A stretch of 64,000 nucleotides of DNA from Geobacteraceae bacterium (GTDB lineage: Bacteria > Desulfobacterota > Desulfuromonadia > Geobacterales > Geobacteraceae), in NCBI GenBank assembly GCA_024281055.1, contig JAMXLF010000033.1, forward strand, positions 62,001-126,000, in the 5' to 3' direction. The position numbers and the translations under genes were made by a program. Positions 53,509-64,000 of this stretch are shown in pieces. Under the pieces are notes generated by a model, which searched no databases, had not been told where the DNA came from, and saw only the letters and a program-made list of their open reading frames with translations. Every line of letters begins with the position of its first letter. Position 1 is the stretch's first letter.

Positions 53509-55812
53509 ATGCCGTTTATCAAGCTCTCCGCCGACGGACAGATTTCCCTTCCTTTAGAAATTAGGGAGAAACTCGGACTGAAGCCGGGTGATCTCCTCAG
53601 TATTGAACCCACAGATCAAGGTCTCTCGGTTGTCCCTGTGGCTGAACAGCCGCACCTCTCTGCCAAACCGATTCTGCAGGAATCGATCGCCAGAAAGAAT
53701 CTCGAAACAACCATGCAGTTTATCCGGGGGATCGGCCCGAAACTCTCAGAAGCCCTCGCTAAAAAAGGGATTGTAACGGTTGAGGATGCCCTCTGGCTTC
53801 TTCCCAATCGTTACGAAGATCGCCGAGCGCTGACTCCGATTGCTCGGCTCCGGCCCGGAACTACCGAAGTGTTCAGCGGAGAAGTACTTGCTGCCGACAC
53901 CGTGCAGACACGAGGAGGAAAGCGTTTCTTCGAAGTGATCATTGGCGACGGCACCGCAACCGTAACCCTCAAGTGGTTTCACTATAACCTCCGCTACATG
54001 AAAGGAATATGGAAACAGGGGAGACGGGGAATTTTCACCGGTGAAGTTGCTCAATACGGCTATCAGCGCGAAATACACCATCCCGATGTGGAATGGCTCG
54101 CTGACGGCGAGAGTCCAGCGGCAGCCATGGAGCGTGACCCGGTAAGCTTCGGGCGGATCGTTCCGGTCTACCCGCTAACGGAAGGACTTCACCAGAAGAC
54201 CATGCGGAAAGTGCTAAAAGCGGTGGTGGACCGCTACGTCGCAAGCGTCGGGACCAGCATCCCATCGGAAATTGCTGCCCGTCACAACCTTCTGCCACTC
54301 GACGAAGCCCTTCGGGAGGTGCACTTTCCGGCCAGCACGGATGATCTCGCCCCCTTTAACGAAAGTCGCAGCACAGCACACCGGACTCTCGCCTTCGATG
54401 AGTTCTTTTTCCTCGAACTCGGGCTCGCCCTCAAGAAGCAGGGCGTGACCATGGAAGAGGGGATTGCATTCCAGGTAACGCACCGATACACCCGGGAACT
54501 GCTGAAGCGCCTCCCGTTTCCGCTGACATCGGCCCAGCGCCGTGTCCTTTCCGAGATCAAGGAAGACATGATGGCGCCGCATCCGATGCACCGTCTCGTA
54601 CAGGGAGATGTGGGCAGCGGCAAGACCCTCGTAGCGCTCATGGCCGCGCTGATTGCAGCGGAGAACGATTACCAGGTCGCCATCATGGCGCCGACCGAGA
54701 TCCTTGCCGAGCAGCATTATCTCAATATCCATCGCTGGTGCGAGGAACTCGGCGTCAGAGTGACACTTCTGACCGCGGCCATGAAAGGGAAAACAAGAAG
54801 CTCAGCCTTGGCAGATATCGCTGCAGGCACGGCACAGATCGTTATCGGCACCCAAGCGGTTATTCAGGAAAAAGTGGAATTTGCCCGCCTCGGCCTCGGT
54901 ATCGTCGATGAACAGCACCGCTTTGGCGTGCTCCAGCGCGGCCTTCTTGGAAAGAAAGGGAAGAATCCCGACATTCTCGTGATGACCGCAACCCCGATTC
55001 CTCGCACCCTCGCCATGACTGTTTTCGGCGACCTCTCCCTGTCCGTGATCGACGAGCTTCCGCCCGGCAGAACCCCGATCGAGACCCGAGTCTGCCCTGA
55101 ATCCCGACGCACCACAGTTTACGACATTATCCGGGAGGAGGTGGCCAAAGGTCGGCAGGGATACATCATATACCCTCTCGTGGAAGAATCGGAGAAGTCG
55201 GATTTGAAAGCCGCGACCCAGATGGCCGAACATCTGGCATGGGACATTTTCCCTGACCTGCGGCTTGCCCTTCTCCACGGCCGGATGAAGCCGGAGGAGA
55301 AGGAGGCGGTCATGGCGGCCTTCAAGAACTGCGAGACCGATATCCTTGTGGCGACGACTGTCATCGAGGTGGGAATCGACGTCCCCAACGCTACCCTGAT
55401 GGTTATCGAGCATGCGGAACGTTTTGGTCTTTCCCAACTTCACCAACTCCGAGGACGGGTGGGGCGGGGGAGTGGCAAATCGCGCTGCCTCCTCCTTACC
55501 TCCGGCAAGCTCTCGGACGATGGAGAACGACGGCTCAGAGTGATGGAATCCACCAACGACGGCTTCATGATTGCTGAAGAGGACCTGTCGATCCGCGGCC
55601 CCGGCGATTTTCTCGGCACGCGCCAGGCAGGTCTCCCCGACTTTCGCGTGGCAAACATCCTGCGGGATGGGCGGATTCTCGAGGTGGCCAGAAAAGAGGC
55701 GTTTGCGCTCGCAGAAAAAGACCCGCACCTGACAATGCCCGAGAACGACAGACTTCGTGAGGAATTGCCGCGCAGGTGGGGTGGCAGGCTTGAACTGGCC
55801 GGTATAGCATAG
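53509..55812 (+). CDS. recG: ATP-dependent DNA helicase RecG with N-terminal AbrB-like domain
   Basis: A 767-residue branched-DNA helicase. The first 45 residues, IKLSADGQISLPLEIREKLG and KPGDLLSIEPTDQG, are a SpoVT/AbrB swapped-hairpin DNA-binding pattern not normal in RecG. A linker leads to the usual wedge (FIRGIGPKLSEALAKKGI from about residue 70) and the helicase motifs: QGDVGSGKTLVA, DEQHRFG, TATPIPRTLA, and QLRGRVGRG, with the C-terminal TRG region. GAGG lies 6 bases before ATG 53509; the internal Met before the wedge has no site, so the fusion is likely real. Confidence 0.92.
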   Translation: MPFIKLSADGQISLPLEIREKLGLKPGDLLSIEPTDQGLSVVPVAEQPHLSAKPILQESIARKNLETTMQFIRGIGPKLSEALAKKGIVTVEDALWLLPNRYEDRRALTPIARLRPGTTEVFSGEVLAADTVQTRGGKRFFEVIIGDGTATVTLKWFHYNLRYMKGIWKQGRRGIFTGEVAQYGYQREIHHPDVEWLADGESPAAAMERDPVSFGRIVPVYPLTEGLHQKTMRKVLKAVVDRYVASVGTSIPSEIAARHNLLPLDEALREVHFPASTDDLAPFNESRSTAHRTLAFDEFFFLELGLALKKQGVTMEEGIAFQVTHRYTRELLKRLPFPLTSAQRRVLSEIKEDMMAPHPMHRLVQGDVGSGKTLVALMAALIAAENDYQVAIMAPTEILAEQHYLNIHRWCEELGVRVTLLTAAMKGKTRSSALADIAAGTAQIVIGTQAVIQEKVEFARLGLGIVDEQHRFGVLQRGLLGKKGKNPDILVMTATPIPRTLAMTVFGDLSLSVIDELPPGRTPIETRVCPESRRTTVYDIIREEVAKGRQGYIIYPLVEESEKSDLKAATQMAEHLAWDIFPDLRLALLHGRMKPEEKEAVMAAFKNCETDILVATTVIEVGIDVPNATLMVIEHAERFGLSQLHQLRGRVGRGSGKSRCLLLTSGKLSDDGERRLRVMESTNDGFMIAEEDLSIRGPGDFLGTRQAGLPDFRVANILRDGRILEVARKEAFALAEKDPHLTMPENDRLREELPRRWGGRLELAGIA

Positions 55813-56235: not shown

Positions 56236-57150
56236 ATGATTGCCAGCCGTTTTGCCCCTTCTCCAACCGGGCCACTCCACATGGGCTCGCTCGTAACGGC
56301 CACAGGCAGCTATGTCATGGCCAAAAGAGCAGGCGGGCGATGGCTTCTACGCATCGAGGACCTGGACACTCCGCGCGTCATTCCCGGCATGACGGACGAT
56401 ATTCTGAAGACCTTGGAGCTGCTCGGTTTTCACTGGGACGGGGAGGTCATCTATCAGAGCCGCCGGAACAGGGCCTATCAGGACGCCATCAACAAACTGC
56501 GCGCAAAGGGTCTTGCGTACCCGTGCGGCTGCTCCCGTGCGGAAATCGCCCAGATTGCATCCGCCCCCCATGGCAACAATGAAGGGCTTATTTACCCTGG
56601 GACTTGTTGTGATGGTCTCACTGCTGGAAAGATGGCGAGGGCTTACCGGGTCAGGGTCGATGACAGCCTGATAGAGTTCGATGATGGCATCATGGGCCGT
56701 TGCACCCAGAAGCTCACTACTTCATGCGGCGACTTTGTCGTGCAAAGGGCCGACGGCCCATTCGCCTACCATCTGGCCGCGGTCGTGGATGATGCAGAGA
56801 GCGGCGTCAACCAGGTGGTGCGGGGCAGTGACCTGTTGTCCTCAACGCCGCGTCAGATCTACCTTCAGAAACTTCTCGGCTATCAAACTCCATCCTACTT
56901 TCACCTCCCACTCGTAACCAACGCCGACGGGACAAAACTCTCTAAACGAGAAAATGCCATTTCCCTTGCCTGTGGGCGGGAATTGACACAATACGGGGGG
57001 CTCCTTCTCTTTTCCTCGCTGAGGTTTCTCGGCCAATCCCCTCCTTCCTTTCTGAAGAATGCCCCATGTCATGAAATTCTCGCCTGGGCAGTTTCCTCGT
57101 TCGAGCCCGCACTGATCCCGACTGAAGACGCACCTTTGCGTAAGGGTTGA
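56236..57150 (+). CDS. gluQ: glutamyl-Q tRNA(Asp) synthetase
   Basis: A 304-residue GluRS paralogue without the anticodon-binding half; it glutamylates queuosine at position 34 of tRNA-Asp. HMGS (HIGH-type) in FAPSPTGPLHMGS, the KMSKS-type loop TKLSKREN, and zinc Cys ligands CGCSRAE and YPGTCC are visible. A relatively weak ribosome site precedes the ATG. The true GluRS is gltX at 2821. Confidence 0.93.
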   Translation: MIASRFAPSPTGPLHMGSLVTATGSYVMAKRAGGRWLLRIEDLDTPRVIPGMTDDILKTLELLGFHWDGEVIYQSRRNRAYQDAINKLRAKGLAYPCGCSRAEIAQIASAPHGNNEGLIYPGTCCDGLTAGKMARAYRVRVDDSLIEFDDGIMGRCTQKLTTSCGDFVVQRADGPFAYHLAAVVDDAESGVNQVVRGSDLLSSTPRQIYLQKLLGYQTPSYFHLPLVTNADGTKLSKRENAISLACGRELTQYGGLLLFSSLRFLGQSPPSFLKNAPCHEILAWAVSSFEPALIPTEDAPLRKG

Positions 57151-59431: not shown

Positions 59432-59857
59432 TCAGTGCAGCCGTTTTCTCATTTCCAAAACATTTCCGTCACACACTTTTCGGTAGCTTACGAAGTCCAT
59501 GAGGGATCGTATAAGGAAAATCCCGCGCCCACGATCTTCCAATTGCGTAAAATCGGGGGGAGGGATGGCATTAATATCGAAGCCTTGGCCATTATCGTAA
59601 ACCCGGATAAAGAGCTCATTGTCGGTGATATTGATGAAAATATGGACAGTCTTGTCAGGGTCTCCCGCGTTGGCATGCTTGATGGCATTAACCATCGCCT
59701 CGGTAAGCACAAGGTTAATGTGATATGCGAGGGTTTCCCTGTCACCGGAATACTTGTCAAGCTCCTTGGCGATATCCTCTCCGATTCTGCCGATGAGACT
59801 CAGGTAACGGGTCTGGTTCGGTACCTTGATATCAACCTCGATTTCTCTCTTGTCCAT
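59432..59857 (-). CDS. RsbW/SpoIIAB-type anti-sigma serine kinase
   Basis: A 141-residue HATPase. The N-box is LTEAMVNAIKHANA and the G1/G2-type boxes are VYDNGQGFDINAI and DRGRGIFLIRSLMD. It would phosphorylate the STAS protein encoded just upstream (15-base gap) and may hold a target protein. No sigma factor gene is adjacent, so the target is unknown. It is the last gene of the module. Confidence 0.9.
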   Translation of the reverse strand: MDKREIEVDIKVPNQTRYLSLIGRIGEDIAKELDKYSGDRETLAYHINLVLTEAMVNAIKHANAGDPDKTVHIFINITDNELFIRVYDNGQGFDINAIPPPDFTQLEDRGRGIFLIRSLMDFVSYRKVCDGNVLEMRKRLH

Positions 59858-59872
59858 CTTGACCTCGTGTCT

Positions 59873-60208
59873 TCAGAAATTGTCCAGTGCCTCCGAAGTT
59901 GACGTGTATATTTCAAATACTCGATGGAGCCGTGTCAGTTCGAACATTGACTTTACCTGGGTCTGGAGGGTTGAAAGTTTCAAGTTCCCATGATGGGAGA
60001 TCGCGTTCTTGAAGCCTGAAACAAGAGCTCCCAAGCCGGAACTGTCAATGAACCGGACATCGTGCAAATCCACGAGGATATTCTTGCTCCCTTCTTCGAA
60101 AAGCCGTTGCATCTCGGTTTTCAAGTCTCCTGAATTATGGGCATCCAGTCTTTCTTCTTTCACATAGATGATCACGATTTCATTTTTCTTTTCGATTTTA
60201 AGATTCAT
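59873..60208 (-). CDS. STAS-domain anti-sigma factor antagonist
   Basis: A 111-residue STAS protein. The phosphorylatable Ser lies in VRFIDSSGLGALVSG (Ser56 or Ser57). In partner switching the RsbW-type kinase phosphorylates it and a PP2C phosphatase reverses this. A minus-strand TATAAT at 60280-60275 gives a possible own promoter. Confidence 0.92.
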   Translation of the reverse strand: MNLKIEKKNEIVIIYVKEERLDAHNSGDLKTEMQRLFEEGSKNILVDLHDVRFIDSSGLGALVSGFKNAISHHGNLKLSTLQTQVKSMFELTRLHRVFEIYTSTSEALDNF

Positions 60209-60274
60209 TCATAGCTCCTCTGCCGAGCTGCTTGCGGCAATATAGGGATTTTTCCTGATATACGGGCTGTTAAT

Positions 60275-60280
60275 ATTATA
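60275..60280 (-). promoter_or_regulatory. candidate -10 element for the STAS-RsbW pair
   Basis: TATAAT on the minus strand, about 67 bases before the STAS start codon. A clear -35 element at proper spacing was not found. Confidence 0.35.
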
Positions 60281-60336
60281 CTAAACTTGCAAGAAATCAA
60301 ACGTAAGAATTGTGACAAAAAAGCACGTAGTTCATC

Positions 60337-63300
60337 TCAATCTACTTTCATTACCACCATGGAAATGTCGTCTTCCAAGGATGCTCCCCCTGAATGTATC
60401 ACTACTTTCCGCAGTATCGTCTCTATAATCGTCTCAGGAGTACCCTGGTATCCTTCGGCGAGGATGCCGCACAATCGCTCGGCACCGAACAACTCTCCTC
60501 GATCGTTCTGCGCTTCGGTAATTCCATCCGTATAAAAGAGCACCATATCTCCTCGATTCAGTTGGATATTTCTTTCCTCGAATATTACATCTTGTTTAAC
60601 GCCAAGAATGAGCCCGTCGGCATCAAGTTCCCTACAGGAAGCCTTCTCGCCAGGATAGATCATGGGAGGATTATGTCCCGCGTTGGCATAAATGAGCTGA
60701 CGGGTGTCCGCGTTGTATTTGGCGTAAAACATGGTAATGAACAACTCTGCCCTGGTCAGGTCTTCATACAGGAGCCGATTCAGGTTGGCCAAAATTTTCC
60801 CTGCACTACCTGCTGCATAAACTTCGGCCCGCAGAACACTCCGCGTTTCCGCCATAATCAGGGCTGCGCCAACACTATGTCCAGAAACGTCGGCGATGAC
60901 GATGTCGACAACATTCTTGCCGCGGCGGAAAAAGTCATAATAATCCCCCCCTACATGGGTTGCTGGCAGACAACGACAGGCAAACTCAGCACCCGTCAGG
61001 TCCGGTGGCGTTGCCGGGAGGAGGGAGAGTTGTATTTGCTGGGCGATTTCCATATCACGCGCAACCCGAACATTTTCCAACTCCGCTTTTTCCTTGGCCT
61101 TCATTTCGGAATCGATTTTCACGGCCTGGGCCAATTGACCGGCAAGACTCGTCAAAAGGGCTATAAACGGCTGGGTAAAGAGTCCCACGATCGACTTCGA
61201 AAAGACCGACAGTACACCGAGCGGTGGCTCGCCCTCGCGGGCAATGGGAATATGCGCAAAGGACGTGATTCCTTCCCGTTCCATCAGTTCTTTCGATTCC
61301 GGCTTCAAGATGTGTTGAGTGTCATTCACAAACTGAGGCTTGTTGGCTAGAAAGGCTTCGCCGATGTAAGTATTGATTTCGGGCTGCACGCTCCGTTCGA
61401 TGATCGAGCGGAGCTCTTCTCCCTGGTAGCTCCTTCTTGTCAGTATTCCTTCATCGTTTCTGAGGCGAATTATCGTTAGATCAAACTTGAACTCCCGGCG
61501 CAACAAATCGAGAAGTTCATCCATGATAGCCTGCAGATCCTTCGTGCCGGCCATGATTTCGGATGCTCGAAGCCGCACGTAGAGGTTTTCGCTGCTTTCG
61601 GTCAGGTCCGCACGAACCTTGCTGTAGATGTCGTAAACAGGTTCCATCTTTGAACCGATATCGGACAGATAGCTTTCAACGATTGCTCCAGCAGCAGCAG
61701 CACCAACTGAAGCGGCAAGCGTCTTTTCCGTAAATCGCTTGAGATTTGGGAGTTCGAACTCCGATACTCCACCCCGTTCGTCAATTTCACTTTCTCCAAG
61801 GTATTCGCTAATGGCGGAGTGTGCCTGAGATTCACCTATAAATTTGGACATCAGGTTAACAAACTGCATTATAGTAATAGGCTTCGAGAGCCTTTTGGCT
61901 TCCCATGGGGCCTCTTCCTGGGGCGGAGCGAAGATATCGACGAACTTCCGTACCTGTTCCATTTCCTTTTCATCTTGCTGCAAAATAATCGAACAGGCCA
62001 GATAACCTCCGATATTAAAGAACATGCTCCAGAAAAGCGAGTGCGTCCAGATGTCAAAGCCGGTGAGGCCGAAGAGTGCTGTCGGTTTAAGGAAACCAAT
62101 CCCGAAGGGGCCCCTCACCATGATGTCAGTCTGCCACCAGCCCGCTTCGACCACTGAAGGCAGTAACAATGTGTAAAACCAAAGAAGGAAGCCGAGGAAA
62201 ATACCGCTAATCGCCCCCTTTTTATTACCTTTGCGCCAGTAAATCCCGCCGATGAGGGATGGGCCGAATTGAGCGGCCGCAGCAAAAGAGATAAGCCCGA
62301 TGTTCACGAGCATGTAGGTTTCGCCCACGATGCGGTGGTAAAGGTAGCCAAGAAAGACTACGAGGAAAATTCCGAAGCGCTTGAGGTTGATGAGTAGGAT
62401 GGAAAACCAGGCCCTCGGCTTGAGCTTGACAATGACCGGCATGACGAGATGGTTCAGGAACATGGTGGAAACAGCTACCGATTCTACCATGACCATACCA
62501 GCAGCAGCCGAGAAACCGCCAAGAAATGCAATGAGTGCCAACCACGGATGACCGCTTTTGAGAGGCAGGGTAAGAACGAAATAATCGGCGCCGCTGCTGC
62601 TCCCGGTATAGAGTATGCCACCCAACGCTATCGGCACGACGAACAGATTGATGAGGAACATGTAAATCGGGAACCGCCACATGGCGTCCTTTATATGCTC
62701 TTCAGCGGAGTTTTCGATGACCAGGATATGGAACTGGCGGGGGAGAAACATGATAGCCCCCATAGAGATGTAAAGCAGGGTGAACCAATTGGCATAAGAG
62801 ACTGCATTTGTTCTGCCGAAGGTGGTCAGTTGGTAGAGGAGGGCTGGATTAGCCTTCATCCGGACGAATATATCGCTTATTCCATTGAAAAGGAAATAGG
62901 TGATAAAAATGCCGACAATGAGAAAGGATGCCAGCTTGACGATTGATTCGACAGCAATGGCTGCGACCAGCCCCTCGTGTCGTTCGGAGGAAACCAGGTG
63001 ACGGGCACCGAAAATTACCCCGAAGACGCTCAGAATGAAAGCTGAAATGAAGGCGGTGTGACCGGTGAGTGGCGCTTGTCCATGCATGAACGGGAGCTGA
63101 ATGGTCGGGTAGTTGCAGATGATGTCGAAGGTTGTGGAGACCGCCTTCAGTTGCAGGGCGATATAGGGCATGATCCCGAGCAAGGCGATAACCGTGACGA
63201 GTGCTCCCAGCCATTGTGATTTGCCGTACCGTGAGCTGATGAAATCGGCTATGGAGGTTATGTTGTTCTCCTTGGCAATCCTTACGATCTTACGCAGGAG

Positions 63301-63555
63301 ATACCACCAGGAAAAAGCTGTCAGAGATGGGCCAAGATAGATGAGGAGAAAATCGAGGCCTGTTGTAGCAGCTTTGCCGACACTGCCGTAAAATGTCCAG
63401 GAAGTTGCATACACTGCGATGGAGAGCGAATAGACATAGGGGTTGGCGATGATGCTTTCCCCCTTCTCCTGTTTTCGTTCGGCGTAATAGGCAACCGAGA
63501 AAAGAAGAGCTATATAGAGGAGAGAGACCCCGATGACTATTTCTACACTCAGCAT
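60337..63555 (-). CDS. SSS-transporter-like / GAF / SpoIIE-phosphatase fusion
   Basis: A 1072-residue membrane protein. Residues about 1-540 are a sodium/solute symporter (PutP-like) domain with about 13 spans (SLLYIALLFSVAYYAERK, AVYATSWTFYGSVGKAATTG). About 540-660 is a linker, about 660-820 a GAF-type domain (LRREFKFDLTIIRLRND; IPIAREGEPPLGVLSVFS), followed by a coiled signal helix and a PP2C/SpoIIE phosphatase (about 850-1072) with ADVSGHSVGAALIMAE, HVGGDYYDF, YANAGHNPP, LFYTDGITEAQ and EDDISMVVMK. It should dephosphorylate the STAS protein in response to a transported or bound ligand. The 63555 start overlaps the upstream gene's stop. Confidence 0.9.
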   Translation of the reverse strand: MLSVEIVIGVSLLYIALLFSVAYYAERKQEKGESIIANPYVYSLSIAVYATSWTFYGSVGKAATTGLDFLLIYLGPSLTAFSWWYLLRKIVRIAKENNITSIADFISSRYGKSQWLGALVTVIALLGIMPYIALQLKAVSTTFDIICNYPTIQLPFMHGQAPLTGHTAFISAFILSVFGVIFGARHLVSSERHEGLVAAIAVESIVKLASFLIVGIFITYFLFNGISDIFVRMKANPALLYQLTTFGRTNAVSYANWFTLLYISMGAIMFLPRQFHILVIENSAEEHIKDAMWRFPIYMFLINLFVVPIALGGILYTGSSSGADYFVLTLPLKSGHPWLALIAFLGGFSAAAGMVMVESVAVSTMFLNHLVMPVIVKLKPRAWFSILLINLKRFGIFLVVFLGYLYHRIVGETYMLVNIGLISFAAAAQFGPSLIGGIYWRKGNKKGAISGIFLGFLLWFYTLLLPSVVEAGWWQTDIMVRGPFGIGFLKPTALFGLTGFDIWTHSLFWSMFFNIGGYLACSIILQQDEKEMEQVRKFVDIFAPPQEEAPWEAKRLSKPITIMQFVNLMSKFIGESQAHSAISEYLGESEIDERGGVSEFELPNLKRFTEKTLAASVGAAAAGAIVESYLSDIGSKMEPVYDIYSKVRADLTESSENLYVRLRASEIMAGTKDLQAIMDELLDLLRREFKFDLTIIRLRNDEGILTRRSYQGEELRSIIERSVQPEINTYIGEAFLANKPQFVNDTQHILKPESKELMEREGITSFAHIPIAREGEPPLGVLSVFSKSIVGLFTQPFIALLTSLAGQLAQAVKIDSEMKAKEKAELENVRVARDMEIAQQIQLSLLPATPPDLTGAEFACRCLPATHVGGDYYDFFRRGKNVVDIVIADVSGHSVGAALIMAETRSVLRAEVYAAGSAGKILANLNRLLYEDLTRAELFITMFYAKYNADTRQLIYANAGHNPPMIYPGEKASCRELDADGLILGVKQDVIFEERNIQLNRGDMVLFYTDGITEAQNDRGELFGAERLCGILAEGYQGTPETIIETILRKVVIHSGGASLEDDISMVVMKVD

Positions 63556-63833
63556 CAGCGCTGCTCTCCTTCATTCTGTCCAGTGTCTTTGTTTAAATTA
63601 TTCGTTTTGACGAAAATGTTCGCTTTGACGAAGAGGTAGATAACAAAAATGGAGATCAGCCAGCCTGCCTGGAGGTAAAGGTAGAGGAGGGGGATGTCGA
63701 AGATGGTAACGGGCTTATCGAATATGGTTATAAAGGGGAAATCCATCATGATGAGCCCAAGGATGAAGAAGATCACCCACGATTCCATGAGGCAGAGACG
63801 TCTGAATAACGCCATTCTGATCTTCGGCCACAT
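63555..63833 (-). CDS. small membrane protein before the symporter-phosphatase
   Basis: A 92-residue protein with about two spans (SWVIFFILGLIMMDFPFIT and LLYLYLQAGWLISIFVIYLFV) and a short polar C-terminus. Its stop overlaps the start codon of the symporter fusion and its start lies one base after the preceding partial gene. It looks like an accessory subunit, similar in position to small subunits beside SSS proteins. Function not known. Confidence 0.75.
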   Translation of the reverse strand: MWPKIRMALFRRLCLMESWVIFFILGLIMMDFPFITIFDKPVTIFDIPLLYLYLQAGWLISIFVIYLFVKANIFVKTNNLNKDTGQNEGEQR

Positions 63834-63834
63834 T

Positions 63835-63999
63835 TCAGAGGATCTCCAGGGCTTTTAGAATGACAAAGATATTATCAGAAACCCGCTTTGAAGTATCGAT
63901 AAAAATAAGTTTCCCCTCGCAAGGTTCCGGCGGTTCGAATTCCATTTTCTGTCGATGAAAAAGCTCCCATCTGCCGTCAGACACTTCGCCCGGAATCTG
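63835..63999 (-). CDS. 3' end of an unidentified gene entering from the right
   Basis: The minus-strand frame is open from the window edge for 54 codons and ends at TGA 63837-63835. Visible residues include KLIFIDTSKRVSDNIFVILK and the C-terminus ALEIL. It is separated by one base from the small membrane gene and so belongs to the same operon. No family is recognised. Confidence 0.65.
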   Translation of the reverse strand, partial: QIPGEVSDGRWELFHRQKMEFEPPEPCEGKLIFIDTSKRVSDNIFVILKALEIL

Positions 64000-64000
64000 C

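Follow-up and report, generated by a model that had tools for sequence, protein, structure and literature searches.

A probable transporter-linked partner-switching module of the Desulfuromonadia and its relation to SLC5/STAC histidine kinases

The closest described systems are the SLC5/STAC histidine kinases and the partner switches of the RsbU and SpoIIE type. The former, with RpuS (PMC9100948) linked to pyruvate, CrbS/MxtR to acetate and CbrA to histidine, carry SLC5 and STAC domains and signal through PAS and a histidine kinase to a response regulator. In the RsbU-RsbV-RsbW and SpoIIE-SpoIIAA-SpoIIAB systems, a PP2C phosphatase, a phosphorylatable STAS protein and a GHKL kinase are encoded together. 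In addition, a 2021 review (PMC7918813) mentions actinobacterial proteins that combine SSS with GAF and PP2C_SIG; these are known only as database architectures, which we liken to the present module by description, and they also carry HATPase_c in the same chain.

In the window, by which we mean the whole 64,000-nucleotide stretch of Geobacteraceae DNA that was analysed, a single operon brings together two well-known kinds of signalling, the transporter-receptor and the partner switch, and nearly every genome of this metal-reducing class has kept it. In the order of transcription on the minus strand, the locus comprises the end of an AAA_33 kinase-like gene and the genes for a 92-aa membrane protein, a 1072-aa protein, a STAS protein and an RsbW-type kinase (Table 1), with lgt coming next in the opposite orientation. 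A preliminary description of this DNA had placed an SSS-GAF-SpoIIE protein beside STAS and RsbW-type neighbours and had read them as a transporter-linked partner switch. All three genes are where it put them, as borne out by Pfam and by comparison with CbrA, RpuS and SLC5 proteins, and the reading itself is supported by domain matches, invariant catalytic residues and class-wide gene order.

Table 1. Genes and domains of the module, with positions in the window
Feature	Positions	Strand	Evidence
RsbW-type GHKL serine kinase (switch protein), 141 aa	59432..59857	-	Pfam HATPase_c_2 3e-24
STAS antagonist (RsbV/SpoIIAA-like), 111 aa, phospho-site motif DSSGLG	59873..60208	-	Pfam STAS 1e-18; TIGR00377 above cut-off
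SSS(SLC5)-STAC-GAF-SpoIIE protein, 1072 aa	60337..63555	-	Pfam, phmmer, BLASTP and fold matches
SLC5/SSS domain, residues 1-535	61951..63555	-	10ed_A E=3.5e-70; SLC5 fold matches; K207 invariant
STAC domain, residues about 555-640	61636..61893	-	RpuS alignment through STAC; model vs Af1502 5a1q (weak Z)
GAF domain, residues 672-812	61120..61542	-	Pfam GAF_2 1e-15; 2qyb E=1.7e-63
SpoIIE/PP2C phosphatase domain, residues 883-1071, signalling helix before	60343..60909	-	Pfam SpoIIE 3e-50
CbrX-like two-helix membrane protein, 92 aa	63555..63833	-	Stop/start overlap; homologs upstream of SSS gene
AAA_33 kinase-like gene, 3' end (520 aa, runs past the window); not a necessary part	63835..64000	-	Independent occurrence

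The module shares the SLC5 and STAC domains with the SLC5/STAC kinases, and the Na2-site lysine is common to the module, CbrA and RpuS; a small two-helix membrane gene upstream in the module resembles, in position, size and overlap, the one of CbrA, of which it may be a counterpart, and it has a homolog in a Cupriavidus relative. In contrast to the kinases, the module has GAF instead of PAS and PP2C leading to STAS/RsbW instead of a histidine kinase leading to a response regulator. Pfam found no histidine kinase output (HisKA plus HATPase_c) in the 1072-aa protein, SpoIIE being its sole output domain; because this kinase output is absent, the protein is a relative of the SLC5/STAC histidine kinases and not a member. 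As in the RsbU and SpoIIE systems, PP2C, STAS and GHKL kinase are encoded together with their motifs intact, but the sensor of the phosphatase is a transporter fold, and neither the operon nor the family genomes searched yielded a SigB, SigF or SigG factor. The RsbW and SpoIIAB equivalog models score the window kinase at 52.8 and 43 bits, short of their cut-offs of 145 and 135, and given these scores and the absence of a SigB/F/G factor, the module is not a sigma-B/F system.

A literature search, with subscription papers largely outside its scope and hence not a proof of novelty, returned no description of an SSS.SpoIIE-STAS-RsbW operon, which is apparently unstudied. In Geobacter, which is without SigB, the locus makes the control exerted by RsbW directly testable. 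Furthermore, this sensor occurs in the phylum with either a kinase or a phosphatase as its output, and it has been deleted naturally in some lineages; these output variants and deletions are useful for studying SLC5/STAC signal transmission and the role of CbrX-type peptides.

Sensor domains, ligand pocket and the small membrane protein

The Pfam search proposed in the preliminary description recognized the GAF and SpoIIE domains, but the SSF model gave no match to the 1072-aa protein at E<=0.1, and this part of the proposed check would accordingly have failed. Pfam SSF was dropped as the test for the SSS part and replaced by comparison with the solved CbrA and with RpuS, as follows: 1) phmmer aligned residues 7-468 with the solved CbrA chain 10ed_A (E=3.5e-70); 2) BLASTP gave 38% identity to Sinorhizobium fredii RpuS over residues 6-630, STAC included; 3) residues 1-534 of the AlphaFold model superpose on SLC5 transporters, among them CHT1 (9bim) with a Z of 27.8 and 467 aligned residues at an rmsd of 3.9. 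The full-length model is middling (mean pLDDT 69.8, pTM 0.44) and was used for domain folds, not for their arrangement. A homologous protein from the same phylum (L231) does pass the Pfam SSF cut-off. The identity of the N-terminus as an SSS domain is certain, and this domain is of the CbrA/CrbS/RpuS type.

The window protein also contains a STAC domain, which was absent from the preliminary description. When modelled in isolation, its top PDB match is the STAC prototype Af1502 (5a1q; Z 5.8, rmsd 3.4, 69/69 residues), a match that is weak by itself and that agrees with the RpuS alignment. The STAC profile matched a Cupriavidus kinase (P=94%, E=2e-7), matched the CbrA-type STAC poorly and found no chain among the PDB sequences. 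For the GAF domain that follows, the structure of its counterpart in the G. sulfurreducens ortholog has been available since 2007 (PDB 2qyb).

In CbrA, K196 occupies the Na2 site and has been linked to proton coupling (PMC13022988); its equivalent in the window protein, K207, is kept in every relative examined. Of the residues lining the CbrA pocket, the window protein retains W55, F71, Y75, Y51 and F406; it has Thr in place of S53 and A56, and Ser in place of F248. The nine pocket positions are all equal to those of the Cupriavidus SSS kinase (9/9) and seven of them to those of RpuS (7/9); across 15 family orthologs, only two of the nine vary, and the changes are conservative (Tyr at F71 in two orthologs, Ala at F248 in one). 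With the pocket being nearer to that of the monocarboxylate-linked RpuS than to the histidine pocket of CbrA, we would guess, as a first guess from these nine positions, that the ligand is a small carboxylate. Greater change in the pocket was seen in several paralogs without STAS/RsbW neighbours (L058, L060, L192, L209 and L218), but not in L195 and L217. One such second paralog (L058 4211-17178, and L059) lacks the small gene, STAS and RsbW, and has as neighbours an acetyl-CoA hydrolase/transferase, a sigma-54 activator, RecG and proline utilisation A; the paralog in L217 precedes a DctP-type TRAP binding protein. These paralog neighbourhoods give hints of organic-acid signals for the SSS.SpoIIE family.

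The TGA of the small gene overlaps the ATG of the SSS gene (TGATG at 63553-63557). A similar stop/start arrangement couples the translation of cbrX and cbrA in Pseudomonas putida (PMC6591292), and the cryo-EM structure of CbrA has the CbrX hairpin bound to the SLC5 domain (PMC13022988). A homolog of the small protein is also present upstream of the Cupriavidus SSS histidine kinase, several histidine-kinase loci of the wider phylum have a small gene as well, and the small protein is never found where the SSS part is lacking. Comparison with the small gene preceding an Amphritea CbrA-type kinase gave no sequence match, and a profile of the small protein found chance matches only among the PDB sequences. 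The preliminary description had expected the unnamed upstream genes (63555-63999) to be part of the system, which holds for the 92-aa gene but not for the gene ending in 63835-64000, as the latter is found without the module and vice versa. On the upstream side, the DNA beyond 64000 continues this independent 520-aa AAA_33 kinase-like gene. We rejected the AAA_33/APH gene as an obligatory part given that it occurs without the module in five genomes (G001, G002, G538, G561 and G566) and is missing in the module-bearing G303 and G448.

Switch proteins, gene order and natural deletions

The catalytic sites of all three switch components are intact. The PP2C metal-site residues D871, D889, D1010, D1062 and D1063 are invariant in 18 relatives, the STAS motif D55-S56-S57-G58-L59-G60 (DSSGLG) is present in 67/67 relatives, and residues E53, N57, D88, G90, G92, G110 and G112 of the RsbW-type kinase (N, G1 and G2 boxes) in 68/68; the best solved relatives of this kinase are RsbW (6m36) and SpoIIAB. 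Elsewhere in the window's genome, a PAS-SpoIIE protein (L239 4802-6094), with similar proteins across the family, has a phosphatase domain 52% identical to that of the module and might act on the same STAS protein. A second RsbW-like kinase, without a STAS neighbour, occurs in two genomes of the order (L246 6917-7357; L247 6510-6950), near a gene resembling aldehyde:ferredoxin oxidoreductase.

At E<=1e-180, the full-length SSS.SpoIIE protein is found in 169 of 200 class genomes (about 85%) and in 61 of 67 genera; at the looser E<=1e-60, which lets in free SpoIIE relatives as well, 44 of the 48 family genomes match. The fusion of an SSS domain to a phosphatase had been called unusual, a view that does not hold with the module in about 85% of the class, 2qyb on record since 2007 and the Actinobacteria architecture already described (PMC7918813). 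Of the 62 loci read, 52 have STAS and RsbW immediately after SSS.SpoIIE, while the remaining ten are either paralogs or truncated at the end of a contig. As to whether the gene order recurs, the arrangement small protein - SSS.SpoIIE - STAS - RsbW is fixed in 51 of these 52 module loci, with a homolog of the small protein immediately preceding the SSS gene. Related families keep the order of the flanking genes as well, and with regional gene order conserved beyond the module, adjacency is weaker evidence than it appears.

Natural deletions take the locus apart in several lineages. In one genus of the family, g13 (L232-L238), the AAA_33 gene, STAS, RsbW and lgt are still in place at this locus, though gene calling did not list STAS or RsbW on its own in every case. 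Lost are the small gene and SSS-STAC-GAF, while SpoIIE survives as a free protein (L232, L235-L238) of 254-269 aa that is 55-59% identical to the SpoIIE domain of the window. In family f118 (L242-L245, L251), both the large and the small genes are gone and STAS-RsbW is retained, in genomes with 2 to 5 other SpoIIE proteins each. One genome (G007), the sister species of which carry the module, lacks SpoIIE, RsbW and SSS.SpoIIE altogether. Among the 200 class genomes, SSS.SpoIIE and RsbW are both present in 167 and both absent in 14, with SSS.SpoIIE only in 2 and RsbW only in 17; this co-occurrence gives a Fisher p of about 2e-11, uncorrected for ancestry, the 14 double-negatives coming from one genus (ten) and three other genera. 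Together, the natural deletions and the coupled loss of SSS.SpoIIE and RsbW support a layered system, with STAS-RsbW as the core, SpoIIE as its phosphatase, and the SSS part plus the small protein as a sensor that can be lost as a unit. Separately, G033 and G458 (L063 8604-11596; L248 676-3890) have an SSS.SpoIIE gene broken into two reading frames beside a retained STAS and RsbW, reflecting either real decay or sequencing error.

In the wider phylum, matches to the protein end after GAF, and the three such proteins scanned have HisKA and HATPase_c instead of SpoIIE. In a quick-search tree of SSS-STAC-GAF, the SpoIIE versions are all on one side of a branch with an SH-aLRT of 99, which fits a single exchange of output; the backbone was unresolved in a tree of the SSS part alone. 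The scan of the genome collection used SpoIIE motifs as its sole patterns and thus says little on the spread of the fusion outside the class, and a search for CbrA in five other genomes gave no match and is uninformative. A protein of the same SSS family, encoded on plasmid pAZKH of Azoarcus sp. KH32C (L285 4235-7177) and 47% identical over residues 6-592, has its output annotated as EAL (c-di-GMP phosphodiesterase type) vs. SpoIIE in the module, which, with the histidine kinase, brings the outputs of this sensor to three kinds.

Proposed switch, its alternatives and the target of RsbW

Given the observed parts, their intact catalytic sites, the class-wide gene order and the coupled loss, we surmise that the module is probably a transceptor-driven partner switch in which SSS input reaches RsbW by way of SpoIIE and STAS. 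Together with STAC and the small membrane protein, the SLC5 domain would sense, and may also transport, a small nutrient; binding or transport of this ligand, together with input from GAF, would set the activity of SpoIIE via the helical linker. We infer the ensuing phosphorylation steps, the direction of the signal and its end at a target of the switch: SpoIIE would dephosphorylate STAS-P, the dephosphorylated STAS would draw RsbW off its target, and RsbW would reset the switch by rephosphorylating STAS. Viewed in this manner, the module looks like a route from nutrient uptake to a regulatory switch. A counterpoint is that some SSS.SpoIIE paralogs are without adjoining STAS/RsbW.

The sensor could contribute less than this proposal assigns to it. 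Overexpressed CbrA can activate its targets even without the membrane domain, and it depends on its PAS domain (PMC6591292, PMC7918813), implying that the SSS part may merely modulate and that the signal may be cytosolic. Applied to the module, GAF, which is kept in all full-length versions and in the histidine-kinase versions of the phylum, would read a cytosolic signal and control SpoIIE through the adjoining helix, with the SSS part mainly serving as a membrane anchor or modulator. We consider this unlikely, as an inert anchor would have no need for the pocket and lysine that are conserved class-wide, and the small partner gene is retained alongside the SSS domain.

The signal might also run in the reverse direction, with the switch regulating transport through the SSS domain and the phosphatase tail acting as a docking site, which would agree with the role in regulating solute transport proposed for STAC when the domain was named (PMC4834066). 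However, the invariant metal-site residues leave SpoIIE catalytically intact, and SpoIIE-STAS-RsbW persists without the transporter part, signifying that the switch has a use of its own; reverse flow is thus very improbable. Least probable of all, and hardly to be expected, is that the transporter-phosphatase has nothing to do with the STAS-RsbW pair and merely shares one conserved region with it. While the conserved order of flanking genes in related families and the one family with STAS-RsbW but without the big gene would accommodate such a separation, the coupled loss in four genera and the retention of exactly the SpoIIE domain beside STAS-RsbW when the rest is lost argue against it.

For the transceptor-driven switch, the target of RsbW is not a SigB/F/G factor. 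None of the 48 family genomes, the window's own included, has such a factor over the TIGR02980 cut-off, a level that one control genome exceeded, and the absence of an adjacent sigma factor, as claimed in the preliminary description, extends to the 20 kb read around the module. The published list of Geobacter sigma factors comprises RpoH, RpoE, RpoN, RpoD, RpoS and FliA (PMC2700814). Three module-bearing genomes (G008-G010) have three sigma-70 matches only, of RpoD, RpoS and RpoH size, making RpoS the likeliest target by elimination, if the target is a sigma factor at all. FliA was rejected as an obligatory target on the basis of G008, in which the sigma classes were assigned by size and rank and not with a FliA model.

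It is also conceivable that RsbW is not an anti-sigma factor and binds some non-sigma protein as the output, a kind of target that the preliminary description had considered, or that STAS, once dephosphorylated, acts on a target itself, and to this we would give slightly less than an even chance. In line with such an output are the 48 genomes without a SigB/F/G factor, the lack of an adjacent sigma gene, the scores of RsbW far under the equivalog cut-offs, and the precedent of STAS-as-output systems in proteobacteria, as proposed for SypA and RbaV (PMC8256260). On the other hand, RpoS, RpoD and others remain as possible sigma targets, and no alternative partner was identified here. More broadly, and as a tentative proposal, the module might represent a class-defining, Desulfuromonadia-type system, wherein a transporter-fold receptor and its small partner govern serine phosphorylation of STAS, the target of RsbW is a non-sigma protein, and the output was exchanged once, from histidine kinase to phosphatase.

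Two observations concern the genes further along the window. A gluQRS-like gene (56236-57150) lies 2.3 kb from the module, and the Amphritea CbrA-type locus (L284) has the order dksA-gluQRS-small gene-CbrA; the presence of gluQRS near both is probably a coincidence. RecG (53509-55812) has an N-terminal stretch (MPFIKLSADGQISLPLEIREKLGLKPGDLLSIE) that, by eye, resembles a swapped-hairpin domain of the AbrB/MazE type, and the RecG beside the paralogs in L058/L059 has the same AbrB/MazE-like N-terminal stretch.
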